Assembly (NCBI RefSeq): GCF_007751035.1 | Contig: NZ_CP036433.1 | Location: 4,507,001-4,571,000 of the forward strand | Origin: Lignipirellula cremea | GTDB taxonomy: Bacteria; Planctomycetota; Planctomycetia; Pirellulales; Pirellulaceae | DNA: 64,000 nucleotides | Direction: 5' to 3' | Shown here: positions 20,592-37,704 of the stretch, one piece after another | Position numbering within the stretch: the stretch's first letter is position 1 | Layout: each line of letters opens with the position of its first letter | The notes under the pieces: generated by a model | Told to the model about the DNA's origin: nothing | Database searches by the model: none | Seen by the model: only the letters and a program-made list of their open reading frames with translations | Made by a program: the position numbers and the translations under genes

Positions 20592-20982
20592 GTGTACTCC
20601 AGCAGATTTTACATGGTCGCGCCAATGTCAAACTGGGGGGCGGATTGGGCCAGCAAAACTCTAGCAGGATCAGCCGAGACTGGCAAAATCGATCCAGATG
20701 CTGAAAGGCCCGATCTTCCTCCGATATCGTGGGGACCAGGGTGACTCGCCTGTCCGGTGTCAAGTGGCGGGGGCGGCCATTCCAAAGCTTGCTCCGGGCA
20801 GGCGCCGCTTGCCTGGCAGAGGAACGCTCGGACGAGGTGATCGCCGCTCCTCTCTTCGACCTTTATCGCATTGCCCGCCAAACGCCGTGCCACTCAGGCG
20901 TTCGTCGCTGGCGGTGGTTTGCCGGGGCGGGTAATCTAACGCTCCTGGATTGTGGCGGTTACTTGGGGAATGGAGGTGCAAG
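20592..20982. other. Intergenic region upstream of glpK
   Basis: 391 bp between the divergent disrupted gene and glpK. It holds copy C of the 41-bp repeat (20663-20703) and a small stem (CAGGC / GCCTG near 20798-20814). No gene or clear promoter was found; open frames here look random. Confidence 0.5.
20663..20703 (+). repeat. Intergenic 41-bp repeat, copy C (diverged)
   Basis: Starts AGCAGGATCAGC and ends CCAGATGCTG, preceded by AAAACTCT exactly as in copy B. It matches copy B at 28 of 41 positions without gaps, so the relationship is weaker than A-B. Confidence 0.45.
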
Positions 20983-22624: not shown

Positions 22625-22692
22625 TCCAAGTATAAACGGCTTCTTATCTGTTGTTGTCGTCTACACACGCCGTTACTACAAAGGAGTGCGCG

Positions 22693-23979
22693 ATGTTAAA
22701 GGTCGTTTCGAACCAGCGTTCCCACGATTGTGCGGGCAACACCCGGCGAGACTTTCTCCGCGTGGGTGCGATCGGCGCCAGTGCGTTGACCTTGCCGAAT
22801 CTGTTGCGTTCTCGGGCGGCTGCGGCCGAGTCCCAGCAGTCGCTCCGCAGCAAGTCGGTGATCTGGGTCTGGCTTTCTGGCGGTCCCACGCATGTGGAAA
22901 CGTTTGATCCCAAAATGACGGCTCCGGTGGAATTCCGCAGCATCACGGGCGAAGCAGCAACGCCGATTCCGGGCGTCACGATCGGCGGCAGTTTCCCCAA
23001 GCTGGCTTCGGTCGCGGACAAAATGGCGATCGTGCGTTCGTTTGCCCATAACAACAGCAGCCACGGCAACGGCACCCAGCTGGTCATGACGGGCTACAAC
23101 GACCGGGCCGACATGCGGCCTTCGATGGGTTCGATCATGGCCAAGCGTTTTGGCTGCAGCGATCCGCAATCCGGCATGCCGACGTATGTCCGCATGGGGA
23201 ACATTCGCAGCGATGGTCCCGGCTGGCTGGGCACCACGTATAGCCCCTTTGATCCTGGCAGCCAGGCAAGCAAGAGCATGCGGCTGTCGCTTGACGCCGA
23301 CCGTGTTTCCGATCGCCGGAACCTGCTCGACAGCATCGACAAAATGAAGCGTTCGGCCGACGCCAGCGGCAAAATGGCCGGTATGGACGGCTTTGAACAG
23401 CAGGCCTTCGAGCTGATCCTGGGCAGTTCCCAGGAGGCGTTTGATACCACGAAAGAGTCGAAGCAGACCCGCGACGCCTATGGCAGCGGACTGGGCGAAA
23501 GCCTGCTGAAGGCTCGACGCCTGGTCGAAGCCGGTTGTGGTTTCGTCACCCTGAATTACGGTGGGTGGGACATGCACGGCGGGATCGAAAAAGGGATGAA
23601 GTCGCGCGCCGGTCAGGTTGACCAGGGCGTATCCGCCCTGATCGCGGATCTGCACGAACGCGGCATGAACGAAGACACCCTGGTCGTGGTGACGGGCGAA
23701 TTCGGCCGCACCCCCAAGATCAACGCCAAAGGCGGACGCGATCACTGGGGCCGTTTGTGCACGCTGGCCCTCAGCGGCGGCGGTTTGAAAATGGGCCAGG
23801 TGATTGGCGAATCTTCCCGCAAGATCGAAGTTCCGGCCACCACCCCGATCACGCCGCAGGACCTGATGGCGACGATCCTGCAGATGTATGGCGTCGACCA
23901 TCGGATGCAGTTCGTCAACAACTCCGGTCGCCCGGTGTTCCTGGTCGAAGACGGCCAGCCGATCGCCGAGTTGGTTTAA
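22693..23979 (+). CDS. DUF1501 domain protein with Tat signal
   Basis: 428 aa. The N-terminus TRRDFLRVGAIGASALTLP is a twin-arginine signal (R18, R19), so the protein is exported folded. The body fits DUF1501, an alkaline-phosphatase/sulfatase-like fold abundant in planctomycetes: WVWLSGGPTHVETFDPK, GGWDMHGGIEKGM and VVTGEFGRTPKIN, with Asp/His residues suited to metal binding. Start at 22693 with AAGGAG upstream. In planctomycetes DUF1501 genes are usually paired with DUF1553/DUF1549 cytochrome-like genes; none is adjacent here. Substrate unknown. Confidence 0.92.
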   Translation: MLKVVSNQRSHDCAGNTRRDFLRVGAIGASALTLPNLLRSRAAAAESQQSLRSKSVIWVWLSGGPTHVETFDPKMTAPVEFRSITGEAATPIPGVTIGGSFPKLASVADKMAIVRSFAHNNSSHGNGTQLVMTGYNDRADMRPSMGSIMAKRFGCSDPQSGMPTYVRMGNIRSDGPGWLGTTYSPFDPGSQASKSMRLSLDADRVSDRRNLLDSIDKMKRSADASGKMAGMDGFEQQAFELILGSSQEAFDTTKESKQTRDAYGSGLGESLLKARRLVEAGCGFVTLNYGGWDMHGGIEKGMKSRAGQVDQGVSALIADLHERGMNEDTLVVVTGEFGRTPKINAKGGRDHWGRLCTLALSGGGLKMGQVIGESSRKIEVPATTPITPQDLMATILQMYGVDHRMQFVNNSGRPVFLVEDGQPIAELV

Positions 23980-24158: not shown

Positions 24159-25175
24159 ATGCGATGTTCGTACTTGCGCTGTTTGCCGTTGCTGCTGTTG
24201 GTGATGTTGGCTTCCTCCTCCCGTTCACTGCGGGCCGCAGAACCGGGGGCCGTCACCCTGGTGGAAGTAAAGCGGATCTGGGACAAGGCTCCGCATAATG
24301 CCTTTACGGATCTGATTCGTTTCCAGGATCGCTGGTACTGCGTGTTCCGCGAAGGCAGCGCCCATGTTTCGCCCGATGGCGCCTTGCGCGTGTTGACGTC
24401 GGTCGATGGCGATACCTGGGAGTCGGCCGCGCTGATTACGTCGGAAAACTCTGACCTGCGCGACGCCAAGATTACCGTTACGCCCGCGGGTCAGCTGATG
24501 CTGGCCGGAGCGGAAGCCATCAACAAGCCGACGACCCATCGGCATCAATCGCTGGTCTGGTTCTCTGACGACGGCAAAACGTGGAGCCGGAAACATGAAA
24601 TCGGCGACCCCGATAACTGGCTCTGGCGGCTTACCTGGCACAAAGGCGAAGCGTACGGTTTTGGTTACGGTTGCAAGCCCGATAACCGCGGCATTCGCCT
24701 GTTCCATAGCGAGAACGGCAAGTCGTATGAAACCGTCTCCGACCAGCCGGCCGAGAATGGCGCCTACCCGAACGAATCGGCGCTTCTGTTCCTGCCCGAC
24801 GACACTTGCTACTGTCTGCTGCGACAGGATGCAAAGCCCGACAAGGGGCTGATTGGCGAGTCGCATCCGCCTTATTCCGACTGGAGCTGGAAGACGCTGC
24901 CGGTCCGTATTGGCGGGCCGCAAATGCTCCAGCTGCCCGACGGTCGTTTCCTGGCGACGGTTCGCCTTTACGATGCTCCGCGGCGGACTTCGGTTTGCTG
25001 GCTCGACCCCAAAACGGGCGACTTGACCGAGGCTCTCAAATTGCCTTCCGGGGGCGATACCAGCTATGCGGGCATGGTCTGGCACGATAACCTGTTGTGG
25101 ATCAGCTATTATTCTTCGCACGAAGGGAAGACCGCCATCTACCTGGCCAAGGTGAAGGTTCCATTGAACCCGTAA
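24159..25175 (+). CDS. Secreted sialidase-like (BNR) beta-propeller protein
   Basis: 338 aa with a signal peptide (LRCLPLLLLVMLASSSRSLRA, cleavage near AAE). Asp-box/BNR-type turns recur: SVDGDTWES, SDDGKTWSR and SENGKSYET, each preceded by a beta strand, as in exo-alpha-sialidase-like proteins. Whether the catalytic Arg triad, Tyr and Glu are present cannot be settled by eye. It is the first gene of the accessory metabolic cluster and could release or bind sugars outside the cytoplasm. A non-catalytic propeller is the alternative. Confidence 0.75.
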   Translation: MRCSYLRCLPLLLLVMLASSSRSLRAAEPGAVTLVEVKRIWDKAPHNAFTDLIRFQDRWYCVFREGSAHVSPDGALRVLTSVDGDTWESAALITSENSDLRDAKITVTPAGQLMLAGAEAINKPTTHRHQSLVWFSDDGKTWSRKHEIGDPDNWLWRLTWHKGEAYGFGYGCKPDNRGIRLFHSENGKSYETVSDQPAENGAYPNESALLFLPDDTCYCLLRQDAKPDKGLIGESHPPYSDWSWKTLPVRIGGPQMLQLPDGRFLATVRLYDAPRRTSVCWLDPKTGDLTEALKLPSGGDTSYAGMVWHDNLLWISYYSSHEGKTAIYLAKVKVPLNP

Positions 25176-25292
25176 CGACGGCGCTCCTCTCGGTTTTTGT
25201 GGGAAGTAATTGGATGCGATGGGCTCTTGCCGATGCTGCTCCCCCTGACGGTTTGCAAACGCATTTCGTGGTTCTGGTAGTTCGACTTGCAG

Positions 25293-26036
25293 ATGATGGA
25301 ATCGACGCAGAGTTGTCTGGGCGATCTCGAAACGATCGCCGCAGAATATGAACGCCACGGCGTGGTGCGACTGCCGGGCCTGCTTTCCCCTGACGAAGTC
25401 CGCGAGTTCCGCGCCGAGCTGGAGCGTTACCAGCTTGAGGACTTGCCCTCGCGCCCGGCCGACGCTTGCACCTGGGAGCCAGGCGGCAAGGTGGTTCGCA
25501 ATTTGTGGCGGCTGGAGCAGCATCATCCGGCTTTCTGTCGGCGTCTGGTGCGTCCTGCAATTACCACCCTGGCGGCCCGATTGACGCGTGGCGAGCCGGT
25601 GCTGGCTGCGGTGGAAACGTTCAACAAGCCGGCCCGCGTCGGCACGGCCGTGCCGTTTCATCAGGACAACGCCTATTTCTGCCAGGCGCCGCCCGACATG
25701 CTGACCCTCTGGATCGCCCTGGATCCGGTGACGGAAGCGAACGGACCGGTGATCTATCTGCCTGGTTCACACCAGGCCGGCGTCTTGCCGACCCGCCCAT
25801 CCGGCGTAAGCGGCAACTCGATGGTGCTGGCGGATCCGCCTGTCATGTCGGACCGGAGTTCGCTGGTCGGGCTGCTGGAGCCGGGCGACGCATTGGTGCA
25901 TCATTGCCAGACCATTCATCGTTCCGACCCCAACCGGAGCGGACAGCCTCGCAAGGCGTTGCTGATGGTCTACCGGGGCGCTCACACGCAAACCGATCCC
26001 GTGCTCAAAGCAGCTTATGATGCGGCCAGAAGTTGA
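25293..26036 (+). CDS. Phytanoyl-CoA dioxygenase (PhyH) family oxygenase
   Basis: About 247 aa. It fits the non-haem Fe(II)/2-oxoglutarate PhyH family: the iron triad is visible as HQD in VPFHQDNAYFC and the distal His in LVHHCQTIHRSD, with RKALLMVYRG supplying the 2-oxoglutarate-binding Arg. GPVIYLPGSH is the usual family segment. It probably hydroxylates a small molecule made or used by the neighbouring enzymes. Start taken at ATG 25293 (a second ATG follows directly); the TTG at 25287 is less likely. The next gene starts about 30 bp after its stop, suggesting co-transcription. Confidence 0.88.
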   Translation: MMESTQSCLGDLETIAAEYERHGVVRLPGLLSPDEVREFRAELERYQLEDLPSRPADACTWEPGGKVVRNLWRLEQHHPAFCRRLVRPAITTLAARLTRGEPVLAAVETFNKPARVGTAVPFHQDNAYFCQAPPDMLTLWIALDPVTEANGPVIYLPGSHQAGVLPTRPSGVSGNSMVLADPPVMSDRSSLVGLLEPGDALVHHCQTIHRSDPNRSGQPRKALLMVYRGAHTQTDPVLKAAYDAARS

Positions 26037-26065
26037 CGACGCCCGGACTGCAGTAAAGGAATTGT

Positions 26066-28429
26066 GTGGAAAAGAAACCAGCAGCCGGGCTGCGTGACTT
26101 TGCGGATCCAGGCCGCTGGAAGTTCACGCCGGAAGATCGCACGCTGTTCGAAGCGCAGCTGGCCGACTTTGTGCCGCCCGACGCATTTGACGCCCATGCG
26201 CACTGGTACGACGTGCAGCATCTGCTGCCCGATGATCGGGCCGTGCCGCCCACTCCGGTTGGCTTCCAGGTGATGCAGGACCGGATGCGGTTGTGGATGG
26301 GGGAACGGGTCCACGACAACGGCCTGTACTTTGGCTATCCCACGCGCGGCCTGGATTGCACGGCCGCGAATGCGTACGTCGAGGCCGAACTGCGGCAGCG
26401 GCCCGGCAGTCGCGGGCTGATGCTGATCCGTCCCAGCGACGATTCTGCGGCGGTGGAAGCGGCGCTGGTCGCCGGCGGCTTTGCCGGCTTCAAGGTGTAT
26501 CATCTGTTTGCTTTGCGGGAGGACTCGTTTCATGCCGAGCAGGGCGAGTTTCTCCCCGAGTGGGCCTGGGAGATGGCGCACCAGCGCGGGCTTTGGATCA
26601 CCATGCACATGGTGCTGCCCCAGGCGCTGAGTGACGTCCGTAACCTGGACTACATCCGTCAGCACTGCCGGGCCTGGCCGCATGCGAATCTGGTGCTGGC
26701 GCACGCGGGGCGGGGCTTCAATGCGAACCATACGGTCGCCGCCATCGATCAGCTGCGCGGGATCGAGAACGTCTTTTTTGATACCTCGGCCGTTTGTGAA
26801 CCGGCTGCGTTTGAGGCCATCATGCGGGCCTTTGGAACGACCCGGCTGATGTATGGCAGCGACTTTCCCGTCTCGGAGTTGAATGGCAAGGCGATCTCGG
26901 TCGGCGATGGTTTTATGTGGCTGTACCGGCAGAATGTCGACTGGGAAAGCTGGCCGCATGGCCGGCCGCACCTCGTGGGAATCGAATCGCTGCTGGCCCT
27001 GCAGCAGGCCTGCCGCACGCTGGGCTGGAAGGATCGCGATCTGGAGCGATTGTTCGGCGGGAACGCCCGGGAACTGCTGGGCATTCGTCCGGCGATTGGC
27101 GACGAGAGCGACGAACGACCGCTGGTGCAGCGTCAGTATGAAGAGGCAAAGACCCGCATTCCCGGCGGGGTGCAGCTGCTTTCCAAGCGGCCGGAAATGT
27201 TCGCGCCGGGGCAGTGGCCGGCGTACTACGAGCAAGCGATCGGCTGCGAGGTGATCGACACGTCGGGGCGCCGGTATGTCGATCTGTCGCACAACGGCAT
27301 CTTGTCGTGTCTGCTGGGGTTCGCCGATCCCGATGTCAACGCGGCCGTGATTCGCCGGGTGCATCTGGGTTCGATGGCGACACAGCAAACGTACGACGAA
27401 GTGCGACTGGCTGAACTTCTGACGGAGGTTCACCCCTGGGCCGGCATGGCTCGTTTCACCCGCACCGGCGGCGAAGCGGCGGCCGTGGCGGTGCGGATCG
27501 CGAGGTCGTCGACCGGGCGTGACAAGATCGCCTTCTGTGGTTATCACGGCTGGCACGACTGGTATCTGGCCGCCAACCTGGCCGATCCCGATGCGCTGGC
27601 AGGGCATCTGCTGGCCGGACTTTCCCCACGGGGCGTGCCGGCGGGGCTGGCCGGGAGCGCGTTGCCATTCCACTACAACCGACTGGACGAACTCGATCAG
27701 ATTCTGGCCGACCATGGCGACCAGCTGGCGGCCGTCATCATGGAGCCGACCCGATTTGTCGACCCGGAGCCGGGCTTCCTGGAGGGCGTTCGCGAGCGAG
27801 TGACACAGTCCGGCGCCAGGCTGATCTTCGACGAAATCACCGTCGGCTGGCGGCTCTGCCTGGGCGGAGCCCATCTGCTGTACGGCGTGACGCCGGACCT
27901 TGCTATCTTCGCCAAGGCGATGAGCAACGGATTCGCCATGGGAGCGGTGATCGGCACGGCTGAGACGATGCAGGCGGCGGAAGGCTCGTTCATCTCCAGC
28001 ACCTACTGGACCGAAGGCGTCGGACCGGCCGCCGCAGTGGCGACGATCGAGAAAATGCGGCGCGTCAATCCGCCGCCGCACCTGGCGCCGATCGGCGAAC
28101 TCTATCGCCAGGGCTGGACCCAGCTGGGCGAGCGGCACGGCTTGCCGGCTACGGTGCAAGGTCGTCCGCAGATGGTGCTCGTGGGGTTCGATCATCCGGA
28201 ATCCAGCGCGCTGATGACGCTGTTCACAACACGCATGCTGGACGCCGGATTCCTGGCAGCCGGCGCCTTTCATCCGACGCTCGCTCATCAGCCGCATCAC
28301 GTGGAGCGGGCGCTGGCGGCGGCTGACGGTGTGTTTGCCGAGCTGCGACAGGCCCTCGACCAGGGCGACCTGCTGCAGCGGATCGGGCATCGTCCCCGGC
28401 ATACGGGCTTTGCCCGCCTGACCGACTAA
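26066..28429 (+). CDS. Fusion: amidohydrolase domain + class III (GSAM-like) aminotransferase
   Basis: 787 aa. Residues about 40-378 form an amidohydrolase (metal-dependent TIM-barrel) domain: FDAHAHWYD (H44, H46), WITMHMVLP, LVLAHAGRGF and LMYGSDFPVSE, the last supplying the late Asp. Residues about 390-780 form a class III PLP aminotransferase close to glutamate-1-semialdehyde aminomutase: VDLSHNGILSCLLGF, FCGYHGWHDWY, the cofactor Asp in LIFDEITVGWR and the Schiff-base Lys in AIFAKAMSNGF (about residue 617). A single polypeptide could couple hydrolysis to transamination. Start GTG at 26066 with AAAGGA upstream. The order of action and substrate are unknown. Confidence 0.88.
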   Translation: MEKKPAAGLRDFADPGRWKFTPEDRTLFEAQLADFVPPDAFDAHAHWYDVQHLLPDDRAVPPTPVGFQVMQDRMRLWMGERVHDNGLYFGYPTRGLDCTAANAYVEAELRQRPGSRGLMLIRPSDDSAAVEAALVAGGFAGFKVYHLFALREDSFHAEQGEFLPEWAWEMAHQRGLWITMHMVLPQALSDVRNLDYIRQHCRAWPHANLVLAHAGRGFNANHTVAAIDQLRGIENVFFDTSAVCEPAAFEAIMRAFGTTRLMYGSDFPVSELNGKAISVGDGFMWLYRQNVDWESWPHGRPHLVGIESLLALQQACRTLGWKDRDLERLFGGNARELLGIRPAIGDESDERPLVQRQYEEAKTRIPGGVQLLSKRPEMFAPGQWPAYYEQAIGCEVIDTSGRRYVDLSHNGILSCLLGFADPDVNAAVIRRVHLGSMATQQTYDEVRLAELLTEVHPWAGMARFTRTGGEAAAVAVRIARSSTGRDKIAFCGYHGWHDWYLAANLADPDALAGHLLAGLSPRGVPAGLAGSALPFHYNRLDELDQILADHGDQLAAVIMEPTRFVDPEPGFLEGVRERVTQSGARLIFDEITVGWRLCLGGAHLLYGVTPDLAIFAKAMSNGFAMGAVIGTAETMQAAEGSFISSTYWTEGVGPAAAVATIEKMRRVNPPPHLAPIGELYRQGWTQLGERHGLPATVQGRPQMVLVGFDHPESSALMTLFTTRMLDAGFLAAGAFHPTLAHQPHHVERALAAADGVFAELRQALDQGDLLQRIGHRPRHTGFARLTD

Positions 28430-28471
28430 AAACGAATCCTTTTTCGCAGGCGCCGGCCCGCGGATTCGTTT
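28430..28471 (+). terminator. Hairpin after the fusion gene, possible terminator
   Basis: A perfect 10-bp stem, AAACGAATCC (28430-28439) and GGATTCGTTT (28462-28471), encloses a GC-rich loop. The T-run is short, so termination may be partial. Confidence 0.5.
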
Positions 28472-28535
28472 ATCATTCGTCGGGCCTGTCAGATAAATTA
28501 CCTCGTAACTCCGGTCGGCAAGAGCCAGGCAAACT

Positions 28536-29549
28536 ATGAGTTTTCGGCATCGTGTTTTGATCATCGGGACCGGCTCCATCGGCGTGCGGCATTTGCGCTG
28601 TTTCCAGGCGACAGGGCGTGCGGAAATGTCGATCTGTGAAGCGCTGCCCGATCGACGCCGTGAAGTGGCGGAGCAGTTTGGCGTCGCGCATGCCTGTGCG
28701 GATATCGAAGAGGCGATCCGCGCGGCCCGGCCGACGATGGCGGTCGTCGCTTCGCCGGCGCCGTCGCACATTCCGCTGGCTCTGCAGCTGGCGGAAGCAG
28801 GCGTCCATCTGCTGATTGAGAAACCGCTCAGCCTCACGCTGACCGACGCCGACCGGCTGCTGGCCGTGGTCCAGCAGCGGGGACTGACCGCCGGCGTCGC
28901 CTACTGCTGGCGGTATCATCCGCTGATCGCGGCGGCGCAGCAGTTCCTGGCGTCGCAGCCTTTTGGCCGGGTGCTGGAGATTGTCTGCCAGACGGGGCAG
29001 TGCTTTCCGTTCTATCGGCCCGCCTATCGGGACATTTATTACAACGACCGGGCGACGGGCGGCGGGGCGATCCAGGACGCGCTGACCCACATGCTCAATA
29101 CGGGCGAATGGATCGCCGGCCCGATCCAGCGGCTGGGCGCCGACGCCGGGCATCAACAGCTGGAAGGCGTCACGGTGGAAGATACCGTCCATGTGATTAC
29201 CCGGCAGGGACGCGCCAGCGACGTGATGGGCAGTTATAGTTTGAACCAGTACCAGCCGGCCAACGAGGTCAACTGGTCGATTGTCTGCGAACGCGGCGTG
29301 GTGCGGATCGAAGTCGCCAAGCACCGCTGGATGCAGCAGAACGACCCGGCCGCCGCCTGGGAGATCCACACGATACCGCCGCCTGACCGCGACACCATGT
29401 ACAAAGCCCAGGCCGAAGGTTTTTTGGATGCGGTCGAACAGCAGGCGCCGCCGCGCTGTACGCTGGCGGACGGCCTGCAGACGCTGAGGGTCAACCTGGC
29501 CGTTCTCGCTGCAGTCGACAGCGGCCGCAGCCTGGCCGCGGTGACATGA
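28536..29549 (+). CDS. Gfo/Idh/MocA family NAD(P)-dependent oxidoreductase
   Basis: 337 aa, cytoplasmic, no signal peptide. The N-terminal Rossmann motif LIIGTGSIGVRH and the family signature HLLIEKPLSL are clear; the C-terminal part is the alpha/beta substrate domain, with GGGAIQDALTHMLNTGEW containing the expected Asp and His near the active site. Such enzymes oxidise or reduce hydroxyls of sugars, inositols or sugar acids. It lies between the amidohydrolase-aminotransferase fusion and a secreted hydrolase-like gene, on the same strand, fitting a shared pathway. Confidence 0.9.
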   Translation: MSFRHRVLIIGTGSIGVRHLRCFQATGRAEMSICEALPDRRREVAEQFGVAHACADIEEAIRAARPTMAVVASPAPSHIPLALQLAEAGVHLLIEKPLSLTLTDADRLLAVVQQRGLTAGVAYCWRYHPLIAAAQQFLASQPFGRVLEIVCQTGQCFPFYRPAYRDIYYNDRATGGGAIQDALTHMLNTGEWIAGPIQRLGADAGHQQLEGVTVEDTVHVITRQGRASDVMGSYSLNQYQPANEVNWSIVCERGVVRIEVAKHRWMQQNDPAAAWEIHTIPPPDRDTMYKAQAEGFLDAVEQQAPPRCTLADGLQTLRVNLAVLAAVDSGRSLAAVT

Positions 29550-29675
29550 TTCCGTCAGTTTGATCTTTGTCTTTGTCGCCGTGACAGCACGCGTCTTGCT
29601 GTTCGGCGGCAATCGCACGTTCCCCCATCGCAACCTTCAACTCTCTTCCTTCCCTCTCACGTCGAAAGGCTCCTC

Positions 29676-31067
29676 ATGACTTGCCGCCTGCGACTTTATG
29701 GCCTGCTCGCAATCACCTGCTGTTTCCTGCCAGCGAGGTTCGCCCCGGCCGCGGAGCCGATTGCGATCGGCGACCGGCTGGAATTGCTGGTCGACGATTA
29801 TCTGGTGGATTCGCTCCAGGGCGACATTCAGCGAGTAATGATCCGGCCGGAGCCGAAAGAAGTCGTGTTTACGGCGGACGAAGCCTGGGAGGGGAACACC
29901 AGCGGTTATTACACCGTGTTCCAGGACGGCGACCTGTACCGGATGATTTATCGCGGCTGGCAGCATGGCGACAAGGACGACGTCGCGGCCGGCGACAGGC
30001 GGAAAGCGGCCCATCCGGAAACGACCTGCTATGCGGAAAGCAAAGACGGCGTGCACTGGACGAAGCCTGACCTGGGGCTGTTTGAGTATGCAGGTTCCAA
30101 GCAGAACAACATCGTCTGGCTGGGGCCCGGCTCCCATAACTTTACCGCCTTTCGTGATGACAACCCGGCCGCACCAGCGTCGGCCCGTTACAAAGCTCTC
30201 GGCCGCGGCCCAGGCGGGCTCTTTGCGTTTGAATCGCCCGACTGCATCCATTGGAAACAGATCGGGGAAAAGGCAGTAATTACGCATGGCGCGTTCGATT
30301 CGCAGAACCTGGCGTTCTGGGATCAGGATCGGAAAGAATACCGGGCGTACTGGCGGTTCTTCGGGCAAGGGGTGCGGAAGATTCGCACCGCCGTTTCCAA
30401 GAACTTTGTCGACTGGGACCAGGAGGCTGATCTGTCGTACACGCCGGCCGACGAAGGCGAGCATCTGTACACGAACGCTATCCAGAAGTACGCCAGGGCG
30501 CCGCATCTGTTTGTCGGCTTTCCGACCCGTTTTGAGAAGAAGAGCGAACAGGTCGAGCCGATCCTGATCGTCAGTCGCGACGGCGAGAATTTCACCCGCT
30601 ACGCCGAGCCCGTCATCCCGCGGACGGCCCCTCAGGACCGGAACCATAACCGCAGCAACTACATGGTCTGGGGCATCCTGCAGCTGCCTGGCAAGCCGGG
30701 AGAATTGTCCGTCTACGGCACGGAGAACTACTACGAATCGACCCCCGGCCGCCTGCGGCAGTTTGTGTATCGGGTGGATGGATTCGTCGCCCTCCGCGGC
30801 GGAAGCAAGGGCGGCCAGGCAACGTCGCGCCTGTTGACGCAGTCGGGCGACAAGCTGGTGCTGAACTACCAGGCGAAGCAGGGTGGCAGCCTCACGGTGG
30901 AAGTGTTGGATGCGGCGGGCAAGGTCGTCGGCAAATCGCAACCGCTCACCGGCGACGCGACGGCGGCGACGGTCGTCTGGCAGCAACAGCCGAAGCTGGG
31001 CCAGGGTGCGCTGCAGCTGCGTTTCCATCTGCAGGACGCCGATCTGTACTCGTTCCGGTTTCAGTAG
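29676..31067 (+). CDS. Secreted glycoside-hydrolase-like beta-propeller protein
   Basis: 463 aa with a signal peptide (LYGLLAITCCFLPARFAPA). The mature protein starts with IAIGDRLELLVDDYLVDS, and has a propeller-like series of strands (YYTVFQDGDLYRMIYRGW, CYAESKDGVHWTKPDLGLF, FESPDCIHWKQIGEK) like five-bladed glycosidases and related planctomycete exoproteins. The last 90 residues form a separate beta-sandwich-like end (GGSLTVEVLDAAGKVVG). Catalytic residues are not certain. It probably processes or binds a sugar polymer feeding the cluster. Confidence 0.7.
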   Translation: MTCRLRLYGLLAITCCFLPARFAPAAEPIAIGDRLELLVDDYLVDSLQGDIQRVMIRPEPKEVVFTADEAWEGNTSGYYTVFQDGDLYRMIYRGWQHGDKDDVAAGDRRKAAHPETTCYAESKDGVHWTKPDLGLFEYAGSKQNNIVWLGPGSHNFTAFRDDNPAAPASARYKALGRGPGGLFAFESPDCIHWKQIGEKAVITHGAFDSQNLAFWDQDRKEYRAYWRFFGQGVRKIRTAVSKNFVDWDQEADLSYTPADEGEHLYTNAIQKYARAPHLFVGFPTRFEKKSEQVEPILIVSRDGENFTRYAEPVIPRTAPQDRNHNRSNYMVWGILQLPGKPGELSVYGTENYYESTPGRLRQFVYRVDGFVALRGGSKGGQATSRLLTQSGDKLVLNYQAKQGGSLTVEVLDAAGKVVGKSQPLTGDATAATVVWQQQPKLGQGALQLRFHLQDADLYSFRFQ

Positions 31068-31161
31068 TGGGCCGGCGATTGTCGCTCTCAAGGCCCCCGT
31101 CTGGCGGCATGCGGCCGCCGGGCATCCCGTTTATTGACGCTATCGAAAATCGCGATTCGCC

Positions 31162-31965
31162 ATGACTGCTGAACCGACGGTTACTGAACTCTTCAATCTG
31201 CAGGGCCGGGTCGCCCTGGTGACCGGTGCGGCCGGGTATCTGGGGACGGCGTTCGCCACGGCTTTGGCCGAGGCCGGCGCCAGCGTGGTGGTCGCCTCCA
31301 GCAGTGACCGCGACCGGGCCCAGGCACTGGCGGATCGCTTGCCGTCGCCGCACGGGGCGTCGCATTTCAGCGTACTGCTGGACCAGATGGAAGAAGCCTC
31401 GTGCGAGTCCGGCTTTGCCGCCGCGGTCGAGCAGGCCGGCAGGGTCGACATTCTGGTCAATAACGGACACGAAGGTTGCGGTCGTGATCTGACCCAGGTG
31501 ACGCATGCGGAGTTTGCCCGGCATCAGCAGAACAACGCCGGCTACTTCGTGCTGGCCCGTCTGCTGCATGCTCACGTGACGGCGGCTGGTCGGGCTGGCA
31601 GCGTGATCCTGGTCGGTTCCATGTACGGTCAGGTCGGCTCTTATCCCGACACGTACGACGGCGTGTGCGCTGCGAGTCCTGTGTCGTACCATGCGCTCAA
31701 AGGCGGCGTGATTCATATGACGCGGCACCTGGCCGTGTACTGGGCGAAGGACGGCGTGCGGGTCAACTGCCTCAGTCCGGGCCCGTTTCCCAACGGGGAA
31801 AAAGTCGCGCCGGAACTGGTCCGCCGACTGAATAAGAAAAGCCCGATGGGGCGGATGGGATCGCCGCATGAACTGAAAGGCGCCCTGCTGTTTCTCGCCA
31901 GCGACGCTGCGAGTTATGTAACCGGACAGAACCTGACCGTCGACGGCGGCTGGACTGCCTGGTAA
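31162..31965 (+). CDS. Short-chain dehydrogenase/reductase (SDR)
   Basis: 267 aa classical SDR. It has the cofactor motif TGAAGYLG (21-28), a variant of NNAG as VNNGH, and a catalytic set S153, Y176 and K180 (in VSYHALKGG). The Ser-to-Tyr spacing is about 23, longer than the usual 13, because of an insert MYGQVGSYPDTYDG. The end PDG-type C-terminus VTGQNLTVDGGWTAW is standard. It probably oxidises or reduces a sugar-derived carbonyl with NAD(P). It precedes the symporter gene by about 60 bp on the same strand. Confidence 0.9.
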   Translation: MTAEPTVTELFNLQGRVALVTGAAGYLGTAFATALAEAGASVVVASSSDRDRAQALADRLPSPHGASHFSVLLDQMEEASCESGFAAAVEQAGRVDILVNNGHEGCGRDLTQVTHAEFARHQQNNAGYFVLARLLHAHVTAAGRAGSVILVGSMYGQVGSYPDTYDGVCAASPVSYHALKGGVIHMTRHLAVYWAKDGVRVNCLSPGPFPNGEKVAPELVRRLNKKSPMGRMGSPHELKGALLFLASDAASYVTGQNLTVDGGWTAW

Positions 31966-32023
31966 GTTGCCGCCCTGATTCGATTCGCCCGGCGATCTGT
32001 GTCTTTTGAAAGTATCTGGAACG

Positions 32024-34510
32024 ATGGAAACCTTTGTAGTGTGGGGCCAAACTCCGGCGCCGGAAGCGGCCGTGATGGGGCTGACCGTATTGGACTGGAT
32101 CGTCGTTGCCTGCTACGCGCTGGGAACGTTGTTGCTGGGCTGGTATTTCGGCAGGAACCAGAAGTCGACCAAAGAGTATTTCGTGGGTTCGGGATCGATG
32201 AACTCGATTTTGATCGGCGTGTCGCTGTTCGCCACGCTGCTGAGCACGATCTCTTATCTGTCGATGCCCGGCGAGGCGATTGGCAAGGGGCCGGTCTGGC
32301 TGGTCACGCTGCTGGGCTACCCGATCATTTATCTGGTGGCGGGCTATGTGCTGTTGCCCATTTATATGCGGCATCGGGTGACCAGCGCCTATGAGCTGTT
32401 AGAGCAGAAACTGGGACGAGGGACGCGGCGGCTGGGGGCTGCGCTGTTTATTGTGCTACGGCTGGCGTGGATGTCGACGCTGATCTATTTTGCGGCCGAA
32501 GCGCTGGCCCTGATCATCGGCGTGAACGACGAGTGGGAGCCGCTGATTGTACTCATCACGGGGATGATCGCGGTCGGCTATACGTCGCTGGGCGGTTTAC
32601 GGGCGGTCGTCATTACGGACTTTGCCCAGACGGTGCTGTTGTACGGCGGGGCGTTGCTGGTGATTGTGGTGGTGTCGTTTCACATGGGCGGCCTGCAATG
32701 GTTCCCGGCCGAGTGGCACGCCAACTGGGATGAACAGCCGCTGTTCAGCTTTGACCCTTCGGTCCGCGTCACGGTGGTCGGCGCGCTACTCACCATGACG
32801 ATCTGGCATGTCTGCACTCTGGGCGGCGATCAGACTTCGGTGCAGCGATTCATGGCGACAGCGGATCTGAAAGCGGCCCGCCGCTCGCTGGCCGCCAATC
32901 TGACCGTGGGGGCCGTCGTGCTGACAACGTTGTTCCTGGCCGGCTTTGCGCTATTGGGTTACTACCAGGCGTTTCCTGAGGCTCTGGGCCAGGGACTCTC
33001 GCTGGAGAAAAACGCCGACAAAATCTTCCCGCACTTTATCGCCACCGGTTTCCCGCCTGCGGTCAGCGGGCTGGTCGTTTCGGCCCTGCTGGCGGCCGCT
33101 ATGTCGAGCGTGGACTCGGGCGTCAACTCGATCACCGCAGTGGTGATGTCGGACTTTCTACCGCCGGCTGATGAAGAAGCAGGCGAGGCCGTCCGTAGCG
33201 GCCTGAAGCCGAGCCACGATCTGGGCGCCAGGCAGCAACGCCGGTTCCGCCAGGCGCGATTGCTGGCGTTTGCTATCGGGGCGCTGGTCGTCGCGACCAG
33301 CTGGCTGGTGAAATATGTGCCGGGGAACATCACCGACACGACCATGAAGACCGTCAACCTGCTGACGGTTCCGATCTTCTGCCTGTTCTTTTTCGCCCTG
33401 TTTGTCAAAATCGCTAAACCTGTCGGCGTCTGGCTGGGGTGCGTGGTGGGCATTATCGTGGCGGTGCTGACGGCCTATTCGGGCCCCATTTTTGGCTACC
33501 TGGTTGTTTTAGATTCGGCTTCCGACCCGATCAGGGATCCCGTCAGTATGATCTGGATGTCGCCGGCGACGTTGGCGGCGAACCTTCTGGTGGGCTGGCT
33601 GGCTTGCCGTTTTTTGCCTGATCGCGAGACATTCGCCGGTCGCATGTGGAGTTACACGCCAGCCGTGCTGGCGGTTGTCTTCGTGGTGGGACTGGCGACC
33701 TGGTGGCGGCCGGCGCCGCGGATCCAGCTGACGGAAGCGAACCGGGACAAGTGCCTGGAGGTGCTGCGGGCAGGGCTGGCGTCGGACGAATTCTGGCCCT
33801 CGATGCACGCGGCGGAAGGACTCACGGTCGGCGGCCAGGGGGACGAGGTCCGCGAGAAACTGGAGCCTCGACTGGAAGAACCGCTCGACGACCAGCAGCG
33901 CTGCGGCGTGGCGCGGGAGCTGGTGAGAGCGGGCGACGAAGAGAAGCTGCCAATCCTGTTCAACATTCTTGAAGGGGAAGAAGACTTCGGCCGGGTGCAT
34001 GCGGCCGAAAGCCTGTTCAAAGTGCATCCGACCGGCGACGCTCCCGCCCTCCGCGCGGCGATGAAACCAACGCAGCCTGACGCCGTTCGTCGAATGGCGG
34101 CCGGAGCACTGGCCAGGGCGCACGATCCGGCCGCCCTGGCGTACCTTCGCGAGTGCATGCTGCAGCCGGAACCGGAGACCTTCCAAATCGCTGCCTGGAT
34201 TCTGGGCCGCACAGGCGGCGGAAAAAAAGATATCGCCCTGCTGAAAAGCCGGCTGCCCGATGCTCCGACCCCCTTGATCAGGGCGTACCTGCAGCATTCG
34301 CTGGCCACGCTGGGAGACGAGGAAGGGATGGCGGCCCTGCTGCAGAACCTGGACAGCGACGATCCCAAGGTGCGAACTTACGCCGCGACGTTTGCCGGCG
34401 ACGCTGGCGACCTGGCGGCAGCCCCCAAATTGTTGAAAATGCTCGACGACCCGGATCTTGACGCACGCATTCGAGCAGCCCAGTCGCTGCTCCGTCTGGC
34501 CCGCCGGTAG
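32024..34510 (+). CDS. Sodium:solute symporter with C-terminal HEAT-like repeat extension
   Basis: 828 aa. Residues about 20-570 are a sodium:solute symporter (SSS) with 13 or so hydrophobic helices; family segments include FGRNQKSTKEYFVGSGSMN, SLFATLLSTISYLSMPGEAIGKG and AAAMSSVDSGVNSITAV. After the last membrane helix, residues about 580-828 form alpha-helical HEAT-like repeats (RVHAAESLFKVHP, DAVRRMAAGALARAHDP, VRTYAATFAGDAGDLAAAP, ARIRAAQSLLRLARR). The repeats should face the cytoplasm if the helix count is odd. Start is the ATG at 32024 rather than a TTG 18 nt earlier. It likely imports the cluster's substrate. Confidence 0.9.
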   Translation: METFVVWGQTPAPEAAVMGLTVLDWIVVACYALGTLLLGWYFGRNQKSTKEYFVGSGSMNSILIGVSLFATLLSTISYLSMPGEAIGKGPVWLVTLLGYPIIYLVAGYVLLPIYMRHRVTSAYELLEQKLGRGTRRLGAALFIVLRLAWMSTLIYFAAEALALIIGVNDEWEPLIVLITGMIAVGYTSLGGLRAVVITDFAQTVLLYGGALLVIVVVSFHMGGLQWFPAEWHANWDEQPLFSFDPSVRVTVVGALLTMTIWHVCTLGGDQTSVQRFMATADLKAARRSLAANLTVGAVVLTTLFLAGFALLGYYQAFPEALGQGLSLEKNADKIFPHFIATGFPPAVSGLVVSALLAAAMSSVDSGVNSITAVVMSDFLPPADEEAGEAVRSGLKPSHDLGARQQRRFRQARLLAFAIGALVVATSWLVKYVPGNITDTTMKTVNLLTVPIFCLFFFALFVKIAKPVGVWLGCVVGIIVAVLTAYSGPIFGYLVVLDSASDPIRDPVSMIWMSPATLAANLLVGWLACRFLPDRETFAGRMWSYTPAVLAVVFVVGLATWWRPAPRIQLTEANRDKCLEVLRAGLASDEFWPSMHAAEGLTVGGQGDEVREKLEPRLEEPLDDQQRCGVARELVRAGDEEKLPILFNILEGEEDFGRVHAAESLFKVHPTGDAPALRAAMKPTQPDAVRRMAAGALARAHDPAALAYLRECMLQPEPETFQIAAWILGRTGGGKKDIALLKSRLPDAPTPLIRAYLQHSLATLGDEEGMAALLQNLDSDDPKVRTYAATFAGDAGDLAAAPKLLKMLDDPDLDARIRAAQSLLRLARR

Positions 34511-34533
34511 TCTCCTTTTGTGAGAGATCCTTC

Positions 34534-35304
34534 ATGCGAAAAAGTAAAACGGTGGCCCGCTTCGCCCAGGGCGAAGTGGTGCGCGTGTGCAACCTGGGCC
34601 ATTTCATCCCTTCCTATGTCGCGCATGCGGCCCGCGCCGGGTACGATTGCATCTGGCTCGATCTGGAGCACAGGGCGATGAGCACGCGCGAGGTCCAGGC
34701 GATTCTGGTGCAGTGTCATCTCTACGATATCGATTGTCTGCTGCGTCCGCCCACGCTGGAAAAAACCCGTTTGTACCGTTACCTGGAAGACGGCGCCGCG
34801 GGGCTGATGATCCCGCACGTTTCGACCGTGGAGATGGCGCAGCAGCTGGTGGCGGCCGTCAAGTTCCCGCCGGTCGGCAACCGCGGGCTGGATAACGCCG
34901 GGCTCGACAGCGACTACCTGGCCAGCTACGACCATATGGCCTACACCCAGGCGGCCAACGCCGAAACCTTTTTGACGGTGCAGATCGAAACGCCCGAAGC
35001 GGTCGAAAACTGCGAGGCCATTATTGCCCTGGAAGGCGTCGATGCGGTCTTTGTCGGCCCTGGCGATCTGGGTTTCCGGCTGGCTCTGGCCGGCGACAAG
35101 ACCGGCGCTCAGCTGGAAAGTGCGATTGAGAAAGTCGCCGCCGCCTGTGCGAAATACGGCAAGGCATGGGGCTGTCCCGCGAGTACGCCCGACATGCTGA
35201 AGCGGCGTCGCGAACAGGGAGCCCAGCTGCTCTGCAATTTCGGCGAGTTTGTCTGTCTGATGCAAGGCCTGGCGAACGCGTCCCAGGCCTTCGACGCACT
35301 CTAA
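34534..35304 (+). CDS. HpcH/HpaI aldolase/citrate lyase family protein
   Basis: 256 aa. The TIM-barrel class II pyruvate aldolase family is shown by YDCIWLDLEHRAMS, GLMIPHVSTVEMAQQLV, TVQIETPEAVEN (metal-binding Glu) and DAVFVGPGDLGF (metal-binding Asp). Such enzymes split or join pyruvate or related oxo-acids and aldehydes, often at the end of sugar-acid or aromatic breakdown. It starts about 23 bp after the symporter gene and is followed 8 bp later by an SDR gene, strong evidence for one operon. Confidence 0.9.
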   Translation: MRKSKTVARFAQGEVVRVCNLGHFIPSYVAHAARAGYDCIWLDLEHRAMSTREVQAILVQCHLYDIDCLLRPPTLEKTRLYRYLEDGAAGLMIPHVSTVEMAQQLVAAVKFPPVGNRGLDNAGLDSDYLASYDHMAYTQAANAETFLTVQIETPEAVENCEAIIALEGVDAVFVGPGDLGFRLALAGDKTGAQLESAIEKVAAACAKYGKAWGCPASTPDMLKRRREQGAQLLCNFGEFVCLMQGLANASQAFDAL

Positions 35305-35312
35305 GGAAAGTT

Positions 35313-36107
35313 ATGAACAACACAACTGGAAAACTGGCCGGCAAGACGGCGCTGGTCACCGGCGGCGGCCGCGGCATTGGACTCGGCTGCGCGCTGGAAC
35401 TGGCGGGACAGGGAGCGCGGATCTTTTTGAACGATCGACCCGGCAGCCCGGAACTGGCCGGCGCGGTCGAGCAGGTTCGCGAACGGGGCGGCGAATGCCA
35501 GGGAGTGGAAGCCGACGTGTTCACCCGGGAAGGCTGTGAGCAGCTGGTGGCTGCGGTCGACCGGATCGATATTCTGGTCAGCAATCCGGCGTTCAGCCGG
35601 CGGGGGGACTTTGTCGATTACCCCACCGACCTGTTTGAGAAAACGCTGCAGGGGACGCTGCTCAGCGGTTTTCACCTGGGCCAGCTGACCGCTCGTCGGA
35701 TGATCCAGCAGGGCGGCGGCGGTAAAATGGTGTTCATCTCCAGCGTGCATGGGCAACTCCCGCTCGCCAGGGCGATCGCCTACAACGCGGCCAAAGCGGG
35801 ACTCGATCACATGGTGCAGTCGATGGCGGTGGAGCTGATGGCTCACCGGATCAACGTCAACGCGATCGCGCCCGGCTGGATCGACACGCCGGGCGAACGG
35901 GCCACCTTTCCGGCCGAGCTGATCGAGTCGGAAGGGAAGCTGCTCCCCTGGGGCCGGCTGGGTCTGCCGGCTGAGATCGGCAAGACGGCCCTGTTTTTGG
36001 TATCGGACGACGCCTCGTACATCACCGGCGTGATCCTGCCAGTTGACGGCGGCTTCCGCTTCCGCGACTGCCTGCCTTCGGCCCTGCCCAAACCGGCGGA
36101 TTATTGA
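35313..36107 (+). CDS. Short-chain dehydrogenase/reductase (SDR)
   Basis: 264 aa classical SDR: cofactor motif TGGGRGIG (16-23), catalytic S144, Y157 and K161 at the normal spacing, and the C-terminal ITGVILPVDGGFRF. The expected NNAG is here ILVSNPAF, a variant. The ATG at 35313 follows AAGGAAAG. It is the last gene of the plus-strand cluster and starts 8 bp after the aldolase gene, so the two are almost certainly co-translated from one mRNA. Probably dehydrogenates a sugar-derived intermediate. Confidence 0.92.
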   Translation: MNNTTGKLAGKTALVTGGGRGIGLGCALELAGQGARIFLNDRPGSPELAGAVEQVRERGGECQGVEADVFTREGCEQLVAAVDRIDILVSNPAFSRRGDFVDYPTDLFEKTLQGTLLSGFHLGQLTARRMIQQGGGGKMVFISSVHGQLPLARAIAYNAAKAGLDHMVQSMAVELMAHRINVNAIAPGWIDTPGERATFPAELIESEGKLLPWGRLGLPAEIGKTALFLVSDDASYITGVILPVDGGFRFRDCLPSALPKPADY

Positions 36108-36188
36108 TTGCCAGGAGTGCCGATGTCGATGGACATTCGCGGACGACGTCAGCGTTCTCAGAGCGACAGACGCTGCGTTCGTCCAACT

Positions 36189-36210
36189 CGACGGGCAGGA
36201 GTGCCCGTCG
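36189..36210. terminator. Hairpin between convergent SDR and sulfatase genes
   Basis: A perfect 8-bp stem CGACGGGC / GCCCGTCG with a 6-nt loop AGGAGT. No T-run on either side, so it may be a weak bidirectional terminator. Confidence 0.4.
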
Positions 36211-36243
36211 TACGGAATGGCGACAAGCGACGCCGCGTATTGC

Positions 36244-37704
36244 CTACTTGCCGGCCGGCTTCTTCGCCAGCGGGTCGTCGAGTTCGCCTTGCATTTGCTC
36301 CAGGGCGTGGGTCAGCCGGGCGACTTTGCTGGCGTGCTCGGGCTGCTGGGCCAGGTCAGTTGTTTCCAGCGGGTCGACCGTCAGGTGGAACAGCAGTTTC
36401 GTGTTGATTTTGGGGTAGTGGATCAGCTTCCACTCGGGCGTGCTGATCATCCGCTGCGTGTCGGTATAGGCGCCGTACATGAGCGGGCGGCCCGCCCGCC
36501 CGTCGAGGAGCGGGAGGACGCTCTGGAATTCGACGTGGTCGGGACGGTCCACTCCGGCCAACTCCAGCGTGGTCGCCATGGCGTCCTGGACGTAAATTGG
36601 CGCGGCGATTTTTTCGCCCGGCTTGATGGAGGGACCGGCGATCAGGAACGGGGTGCGCACGCTGTGGTCGTACATATTCTGTTTCCCCAGCAGGCCATGA
36701 TGCCCACAGGCCAGGCCGTGGTCGGCGGTGAAAATGATGTACGTGTTGTCGGCCTTGCCGGTTTTTTCCAGGGCGTCGAGGATGCGGCCGATCTGCTGGT
36801 CCATGTGGGTGATGATCGCGTAGTATTCCTGGCGATTGACCTTCACCGCGTATTCGGTCCGCGGGAACGGGGCCAGCTGCTCATCGCGAATGCGGTTGCT
36901 GCCGATCTGGTAGGGATACTCGGCCAGGAACGGTTGCGGCAGGCTGATCTTGTCGAGCGGGTACTGCTCGACGAACTCCTGTGGCGACTGCCGCGGATCG
37001 TGCGGCGCGTTGAACGCCAGGTACATGAAGAACGGGTTGTCCCGCCCTGCGGCCCGGTCGAGGTAGTCGATGGCGTCGTCGGCCAGCACCGCGCTCCAGT
37101 GCTTGCCGCCCTCCCAGAAGCCGCCGGCGCCGGTGTCCCAGGGGCGCCACTTCTGGTCGTCGGGTCCGGTCGGCCGGTTATAGCCGGCCGGCGTCTGGGC
37201 GGGCATGCCGGGCCGCACATGCCGGGAAACCGTAAACACCTTGTTGGGATCGGCTTTGACATGCCATTTCCCGGAAAAATAGGTGTCGTAGCCGGCTTTT
37301 TCCAGTAACTGGGGCCAAAGCTTTCCCTGAGCCTGGAAGTCGCTTTTGAGGATCGGTTCGGCCGCTTTGGCATGCCACAGCGAACGTCCGCTGAGCAGCA
37401 TGGTGCGACTGGCGACGCAGATGGCTCCGTGCCAGCCGCCCTGGTTATAGCAACGGGTGAACTGGGCGCCGCGTTTGGCCAGGCGATCCAGGTTGGGCGT
37501 GTGGACTTCCGCGTTACCGGCCGCCCCCAGGGTGTCATACGCCTGATCATCGGCGAAGATAAACAGTAGATTGGGACGCGACTCGGCCGCGGTCGCCAAA
37601 GCACCGGCCTGCATCGTGACGAGGCAGGCGAAAGTGGAGGCCGCCAGCAGTTGTGCGGCGCGGCGCCGGAAGGACGGCTGGGGGATAGTGTCAACATATG
37701 TCAT
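36244..37704 (-). CDS. Secreted type I sulfatase (formylglycine-dependent)
   Basis: 486 aa with a signal peptide (LLAASTFACLVTMQAGALATA). The sulfatase N-terminus is clear: LLFIFADDQAYDTLG gives the metal-binding Asp pair at about 52-53, and CVASRTMLLSGRS (C96) is the formylglycine site, here C-x-A-S-R rather than the commoner C-x-P-S-R. Later FTADHGLACGHHGLLGK provides further Asp/His ligands. It removes sulfate esters from glycans outside the cytoplasm. The ATG at 37704 follows GAGGAG. It converges on the metabolic cluster, suggesting a sulfated glycan source. Confidence 0.95.
   Translation of the reverse strand: MTYVDTIPQPSFRRRAAQLLAASTFACLVTMQAGALATAAESRPNLLFIFADDQAYDTLGAAGNAEVHTPNLDRLAKRGAQFTRCYNQGGWHGAICVASRTMLLSGRSLWHAKAAEPILKSDFQAQGKLWPQLLEKAGYDTYFSGKWHVKADPNKVFTVSRHVRPGMPAQTPAGYNRPTGPDDQKWRPWDTGAGGFWEGGKHWSAVLADDAIDYLDRAAGRDNPFFMYLAFNAPHDPRQSPQEFVEQYPLDKISLPQPFLAEYPYQIGSNRIRDEQLAPFPRTEYAVKVNRQEYYAIITHMDQQIGRILDALEKTGKADNTYIIFTADHGLACGHHGLLGKQNMYDHSVRTPFLIAGPSIKPGEKIAAPIYVQDAMATTLELAGVDRPDHVEFQSVLPLLDGRAGRPLMYGAYTDTQRMISTPEWKLIHYPKINTKLLFHLTVDPLETTDLAQQPEHASKVARLTHALEQMQGELDDPLAKKPAGK

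Follow-up and report, generated by a model that had tools for sequence, protein, structure and literature searches.

The genome of the planctomycete Lignipirellula cremea (family Pirellulaceae), 9.57 Mb on a single contig (NZ_CP036433.1), contains a putative catabolic locus built around an amidohydrolase (AH) fused to a class III aminotransferase (AT). The locus lies at positions 24159–37704 of the 64,000-nucleotide stretch analysed here (contig positions 4,507,001 to 4,571,000, hereafter the window). As shown in Table 1, it holds ten intact open reading frames (ORFs), lettered A to J; an earlier reading of the DNA made from its letters (the sequence-only reading) had described nine plus-strand genes and a convergent sulfatase, and all of these are present. 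The intergenic gaps are 111 bp (A–B), 29 bp (B–C), 106 bp (C–D), 126 bp (D–E), 94 bp (E–F), 58 bp (F–G), 23 bp (G–H), −4 bp (H–I) and 136 bp (I–J), with the starts of G and I taken at 32024 and 35301, and H abuts or overlaps I depending on which start of I is used; the symporter, aldolase and dehydrogenase genes had been placed within about 25 bp of each other, in agreement with the G–H and H–I values. Genes A–I were scanned against Pfam and J only against NCBIfam, and the families named by the sequence-only reading, namely PhyH, Aminotran_3 with Amidohydro_2, GFO_IDH_MocA, two short-chain dehydrogenases/reductases (SDRs), SSF and HpcH_HpaI, all score above their Pfam cut-offs, as do the HEAT repeats of G. 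Motifs expected of active enzymes are present in B, C, D, H, I and J; F carries a YxxxK motif, although a strict glycine pattern that was tried on it did not match.

Table 1. Genes of the locus, with positions in the window and the basis of each assignment (AF2, AlphaFold2)
Gene	Position	Strand	Assignment	Basis
A	24159..25175	+	Secreted BNR/sialidase-like propeller	PF13088 20.2 bits, under the cut-off of 31.4; signal peptide by eye
B	25287..26036	+	PhyH-family Fe(II)/2-oxoglutarate oxygenase	PF05721 122 bits; HQD motif at residue 125
C	26066..28429	+	Amidohydrolase (aa ~37-345) fused to class III aminotransferase (aa ~355-787)	PF04909 53.6 bits (cut-off 26.4), PF00202 123.6 bits (cut-off 30.5)
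D	28536..29549	+	Gfo/Idh/MocA dehydrogenase	PF01408 77.9 bits; EKP and DxxxH motifs
E	29676..31067	+	Secreted five-bladed propeller, GH43/GH130-like fold, with C-terminal beta domain	AF2 model; signal peptide by eye
F	31162..31965	+	SDR dehydrogenase	PF13561 146 bits; YHALK motif
G	32006..34510 (start maybe 32024)	+	Sodium:solute symporter with C-terminal HEAT repeats	PF00474 108.7 bits, PF13646 77.7 bits
H	34534..35304	+	HpcH/HpaI class II pyruvate aldolase	PF03328 96.9 bits (cut-off 25)
I	35313..36107 (start 35301-35313)	+	Second SDR dehydrogenase	PF13561 169.7 bits; YNAAK motif
J	36244..37704	-	Sulfatase, convergent	NCBIfam arylsulfatase 216 bits (best), under every listed cut-off; CVASR motif

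The AH–AT fusion named by the sequence-only reading is one ORF of 787 amino acids, and both of its halves exceed their Pfam cut-offs. The pyridoxal phosphate (PLP) lysine of the AT half, K617, is invariant in 17 fusions, and the AH half presents the HxH/H/H/D metal site, with H44, H46, K143, H181, H213 and D266 invariant across the 17 fusions and, together with D42, in 44 sequences. A single open frame without internal stop is found in 17 of 100 family genomes, the window genome included, the other 16 copies being 46–69% identical to that of the window, and among the best 80 matches listed in the scan of named genomes, full-length fusions occur in Planctomycetota, Verrucomicrobiota (Prosthecobacter, Brevifollis gellanilyticus and Opitutaceae), Bacteroidota (Chitinophaga alhagiae and Membranihabitans marinus), Hydrogenedentes, Spirochaetia and Clostridia; because the frame is open in these 17 genomes and full-length relatives exist in other phyla, the fusion is no artefact. 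In addition, unfused AH and AT genes lie no more than three genes apart at L037 and L038 (loci of one genus), L039, L044, L081, L149, L110 and L118, so that the two are associated by proximity as well as by fusion. The structural neighbours of the AH half, namely the COG3618 protein 4do7 (Z 21.4; 3.2 Å over 247 residues), 3cjp (20.7) and IDCase (20.6), are tied within 1 and are 11–20% identical to it in the rows compared; because they tie, they do not separate lactonase from deacylase, and the enzyme may be an N-deacylase or a lactonase. The COG3618/Amidohydro_2 lactonases and decarboxylases resemble the AH half in fold and metal-site residues, but at this identity their function is not transferable. 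A role of the AT in heme synthesis as HemL (TIGR00713) was rejected, with 177 bits against a cut-off of 527.

The co-occurrence of AT, F, H and D was determined in the 99 other family genomes, with thresholds of at least 40% identity for the AT subfamily and at least 51% for H, and with D matches at 39% (G009, G072) and F matches at 41–46% excluded. F, whose homologues (57–67% identical, one copy in two fragments) occur in 39 of the 99 genomes, is present in 27 of 32 AT-carrying genomes versus 12 of 67 without AT; the corresponding values are 23/32 versus 12/67 for D and 19/32 versus 10/67 for H, and D is present in 31 of 39 F-carrying genomes versus 4 of 60 without F. When the data were shuffled within genome-size quintiles, the observed count was reached in 0–5 of 20,000 runs for any of the six pairs (12 tests, on all 99 genomes or on one per genus, 67). 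Among genomes carrying both members, pairs no more than 15 kb apart number at least 21 of 31 for F–D, 17 of 31 for D–H and 16 of 35 for F–H, and at least 9 of 27 for AT–F, 6 of 23 for AT–D and 9 of 28 for AT–H, these being lower bounds in which weaker H matches are included but not all listed H matches were entered. AT, D, F and H are a co-inherited set, gathered at one site here and in certain other genera but not everywhere; sulfatase J is not a conserved member.

Meanwhile, partners were counted within eight genes on each side of the fusion at 49 distinct fusion loci (window not counted), with identity thresholds of 45% for SDR, 40% for Gfo/Idh/MocA (Gfo) and sulfatase, 38% for AT and 30% for the others. 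At least one partner is found at 24 of the 49 loci, most often HpcH (12), followed by the sodium:solute symporter (SSS; 9), PhyH (8) and E (8), and the first rank of HpcH agrees with the aldol cleavage proposed earlier. These values are undercounts, given the strict thresholds, the contigs that end near the fusion and the uncounted sub-threshold SDR and Gfo genes of Bacteroidota. Twenty-five loci have no nearby partner, and the fusions nearest to the window copy (L050–L054) have at most one, their genomes carrying F and H elsewhere, and D in four of five. The sequence-only reading had stated that the grouping would be accidental if its parts were scattered, and scattered they are in these five closest genomes, as would be expected if a large genome had simply collected common catabolic genes. 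However, a largely accidental grouping is very improbable, because AT, D, F and H co-occur beyond size-matched chance and the genes D, F and H often lie close together in many genera; similar roles have also been assembled at loci of both Bacteroidota and Planctomycetota.

Related loci repeat this gene content in varying arrangements. For instance, L037/L038 contain PhyH, AH, SSS, AT, HpcH, Gfo and SDR genes; L058 contains two SDRs, SSS, PhyH, HpcH, the fusion and a joined A–E gene; L162 contains SSS, a 774-aa A-type protein, HpcH, an aldo-keto reductase (AKR), PhyH and SDR; and L166 contains SSS, SDR, PhyH, E, A and D, without AT. Similarly, an HpcH gene lies no more than two genes from homologues of I (54–57% identical) in L086, L172, L181 and L183, and one such homologue adjoins the A–E protein in L036. 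In Bacteroidota, SusD adjoins the fusions of L098, L099 and L103. A SusC-type TonB-dependent receptor is also present in L098, an MFS transporter in L099 and a DHDPS-family protein in L103, and BNR proteins occur in both L098 and L103. Because SusD-type glycan-uptake genes adjoin these three fusions, catabolism is indicated rather than synthesis, and it is well supported that the locus is a catabolic pathway; the functional set for uptake and breakdown suggested by the sequence-only reading is borne out by the co-occurrence, the linkage and the SusD neighbours in relatives.

Another arrangement is seen in L152, L153 and L159, where F, D and A/E are accompanied by 3HCDH, second Amidohydro_2, DHDPS and DTA-type genes, with HpcH in L152 and L153. 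The second Amidohydro_2 protein occurs with D and F in L106, L150, L151, L152, L153, L159 and L166; its copies are 67–75% identical to that of L106, the only one of these loci with an AT nearby, and DHDPS-family genes are present in five of the seven. These loci may be another way of achieving the same result.

A clue to the substrate comes from the AT domain. Among the best 80 matches listed, stand-alone ATs of the same subfamily, 47–59% identical to it, occur in many phyla. At least two of NeuB, SpsF, PseB and PseG, which mark the biosynthesis of nonulosonates (NulOs), are found at the loci of 20 of 60 stand-alone AT rows, compared with none of the 47 fused rows (Fisher p 2e-6; some of these loci supplied the proteins used as marker queries). 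The fused locus L059 has one PseB-like match. Neighbours at the NulO loci exceed curated cut-offs (bits/cut-off) as PseI (505/340, L140), PseB (500/408, L137), PseC (482/424, L137) and PseG (193/154, L116). In a tree of 110 AT rows, from which three identical rows had been removed beforehand, fused ATs and NulO-cluster ATs share a 94-row group (support 99), and all 20 NulO rows are gathered in a 31-row subgroup (support 83) inside this group. Of the 20 NulO loci, 8 have Gfo and 8 have AKR no more than six genes from the AT, 0 have both and 4 have neither, which suggests that the AT and one oxidoreductase may form an amine–carbonyl–alcohol module, working in the building direction in NulO clusters and in the breaking direction in the window locus. 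An AKR subfamily common to biosynthetic and catabolic loci is not claimed, identity across the two sets being 24–35%. In one family genome (L035, 6519–8651), a 710-aa ORF ending in an AT domain lies within a PseB/PseC/PseG/NeuB/SpsF locus.

It could be argued from this biosynthetic context, the clearest of the AT family outside the window lineage, that the window genes serve to build or modify an unusual surface sugar, with HpcH condensing pyruvate and an aldehyde and the AT adding an amine. Aldolases and transaminases are reversible. Such a direction is nevertheless improbable, considering that Pfam matches to NeuB/PseI, the cytidylyltransferase (CTP_transf_3), PseB/PseC and DegT are absent from the nine genes scanned, that the cluster includes secreted propellers and a sodium symporter, that SusD stands in three Bacteroidota relatives, and that none of the fused rows has two or more markers of NulO synthesis.

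For the catabolic direction, a substrate can be proposed tentatively from sequence comparison: an amino-deoxy sugar acid, most likely a pseudaminic- or legionaminic-type NulO from the surface glycans of other microbes, an assignment to which we give somewhat less than an even chance. The unusual sugar derivative of the sequence-only reading is sharpened in this way, through the grouping of the AT domain, to nonulosonate-type amino sugar acids. The secreted proteins A and E would release the sugar from the glycan, and G would import it by sodium-coupled transport; the AH half of C would then hydrolyse an N-acyl group, exposing the amine, or open a lactone, and the AT half would turn the freed amine into a carbonyl. 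D, F and I would reduce or oxidise neighbouring carbons, converting an amine-bearing carbon into a hydroxyl-bearing one, and H would split the resulting 4-hydroxy-2-oxo acid into pyruvate and an aldehyde, while B may remove or hydroxylate a substituent. H retains the DLEH, LLRPP, IETP and GPGDL motifs, which we take to be catalytic. It is possible, though on the whole doubtful, that this is the first pathway for the catabolism of pseudaminic- or legionaminic-type or extra-aminated NulOs, reversing the oxidise-then-aminate step of their biosynthesis by AH–AT together with Gfo/AKR; the conversion of C–N to C–O would in that case allow cleavage by the HpcH aldolase of a 6-deoxy sugar, for which phosphorylation at C6 is impossible. 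NanE has no match in the window genome, and the NeuB matches elsewhere in it are low, though above the cut-off of 22.1 (37 and 26 bits; two NeuB proteins of NulO loci score 270 and 320 bits), so the organism would be a NulO consumer without the usual Nan route.

The secreted proteins A and E, the two cluster genes that the sequence-only reading left unnamed, would act at the start of this route. Residues R64, R77, D99, E206, R222, R269 and Y303 of A are invariant in 11 homologues, and E206, R222, R269 and Y303 align with the same letters in the solved protein 5hx0, a weak match; BNR_2 is matched at E 0.1 or better by 4 of 11 members of the A family. The roles of the invariant R, D, E and Y may be those that the Arg triad, Asp, Glu and Tyr have in GH33-type sialidases, and these residues would suit the binding of a 2-ulosonic acid. 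E has no Pfam match; its AF2 model (pLDDT 84.8) has BT_0996 (VIA Z 23.4; 3.4 Å over 275 residues), a GH130 phosphorylase (23.2) and a GalNAc deacetylase (22.4) as neighbours. A sugar deacetylase function was considered for E and rejected, the fold neighbours being tied between glycosidases, phosphorylases and the GalNAc deacetylase and the matches in the profile search being weak. In the window, three genes separate A from E. In L036, L056 and L058, a single protein of about 800 amino acids has A as its N-terminal and E as its C-terminal half, which makes it likely that the two form one functional unit, divided in the window.

Several observations weigh against the catabolism of a pseudaminic- or legionaminic-type substrate. 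A falls below the BNR_2 cut-off in the test for a GH33-type sialidase (Table 1), and its similarity to solved sialidases is weak (E 0.0085). The window cluster genes include no lyase of the N-acetylneuraminate lyase (NAL) type, eight DHDPS-family matches lying elsewhere in the genome, and H is nearest to HpaI-, GarL- and RhmA-type aldolases at 118, 97 and 98 bits, far under the cut-offs of 369, 407 and 441. At the fusion loci, besides those without nearby partners, three or more partners occur at only 8 of 49, and Gfo or AKR lies within six genes at only 9 of 47 fused loci. Fourteen planctomycete stand-alone ATs, 8 of them in catabolic clusters, fall outside the 94-row group, as do those of the fullest clusters (L037, L042 and L049); the NeuB protein of L116, one of two scored, is under both the PseI and the NeuB cut-offs; and the substrate cannot be told from membership of the AT family.

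A different amino sugar acid, such as an oxidised hexosamine, a hexosaminuronic acid or a 4-amino-4,6-dideoxy sugar, is a serious possibility, although we lean against it; the AH would then be a deacylase or sugar lactonase, the AT a deaminating enzyme, the SDR and Gfo proteins sugar dehydrogenases, and HpcH a 2-keto-3-deoxy-acid aldolase. This logic parallels the ong pathway for oxidised chitin, as far as the available part of the article describes it (PMC9537276); the structural neighbours of the AH include COG3618 proteins, the DTA-, AstE- and 3HCDH-type genes of related loci need no NulO, and no sugar kinase is found among the nine cluster genes scanned. A different acid would, however, leave the grouping of the fused AT with pseudaminic-type biosynthesis ATs unexplained. 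In favour of a NulO, the cluster of relative L080 includes an NAL-like DHDPS protein (169 bits versus a cut-off of 281), and the DHDPS proteins of L103 and L104 are not NAL-like by their profile scores. Ectoine-like catabolism was also considered and rejected, the AstE- and M24-type genes of relatives resembling DoeB and DoeA only at the family level (77 versus 403 and 41 versus 575 bits); the nine window genes scanned have no AstE- or M24-type Pfam match.

The pathway proposed for a NulO can be compared with known systems. SSS-type transporters also serve sialic acids, and the locus resembles the Nan system (NanA/NanK/NanE) in its proposed NulO uptake and in a pyruvate-releasing aldolase. It differs in the missing NanE match in the genome (NanK was not searched) and in the lack of a kinase among the nine scanned genes; it adds a deaminating AT, an AH, Gfo and SDRs, and its aldolase is of the HpcH/HpaI type, not the NanA type, NanA belonging to the DHDPS family. 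In the available part of the source, NanA homologues have been reported from Planctomycetes, Verrucomicrobia and Bacteroidetes (PMC2693436). The ong pathway for GlcNAc1A, as described in the accessible sections, employs an SSS transporter, a deacetylase and a PLP deaminase leading to a 2-keto-3-deoxy acid (PMC9537276), and the locus is similar in its SSS importer, possible N-deacylase and PLP deaminating enzyme; however, OngB is related to D-aminoacylases and OngC belongs to the PLP enzymes of fold type III, whereas the window has an Amidohydro_2–class III AT fusion and no KdgK. In Aeromonas group I pseudaminic-acid islands, a class III AT and an alpha/keto reductase stand among the pse genes (PMC7874193), as at the stand-alone loci; the likeness is one of description, the Aeromonas AT itself not having been compared, and these islands are biosynthetic, with pse genes present and, in the part of the article available, no mention of an AH fusion, a transporter or HpcH. 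Similarly, the 8-epimerisation of pseudaminic acid by EpaA/EpaB, in which an AKR–CTP_transf_3 fusion participates (PMC12053666), joins an AKR and CTP_transf_3 on a NulO, but as far as the excerpt goes it is biosynthetic and has no aminotransferase.

A phrase search for catabolism of pseudaminic, legionaminic or nonulosonic acid found no paper (most subscription journals being outside the search), a broader search returned Nan-type or general sialic acid papers, other literature searches gave no direct match, and neither a class III AT nor a comparable NulO catabolic cluster appears in the available parts of PMC7439481, PMC13317340 and PMC10570557. The locus is probably a route to pyruvate for which no published match was found, with a key enzyme type that also occurs in clusters for the synthesis of such sugars. 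Many microbes are coated with bacterial sialic-acid-like sugars, and a co-inherited set of this kind opens to testing the question of who consumes them and by what route; the marker fusion reaches Planctomycetota, Verrucomicrobiota and Bacteroidota and can be tested in cultured strains such as Chitinophaga alhagiae.

Of the remaining genes, G is distinguished by its HEAT part (the C-terminal ~250 aa). This part matches ORFs of 323 aa in L088 and 202 aa in L183 and, in L036/L160 (the same gene), the N-terminal region of a 636-aa protein; it seems to be a movable piece of this system. For sulfatase J, no homologue at least 40% identical is found within eight genes of the 49 fusion loci, and J probably stands outside the conserved system. 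The sulfated substrate considered by the sequence-only reading has been set aside because J is not conserved; sulfatases 24–26% identical to J do lie near the fusion in L061, L062 and L089, and given these, some versions of the system are possibly tied to sulfated glycans.

Two upstream genes were left out of the membership of the locus. An ORF at 20950–22470 resembles an FGGY kinase of the glycerol-kinase type, its translation having been read by eye, and a DUF1501 gene lies at 22651–23979, DUF1501 genes recurring near many related loci.

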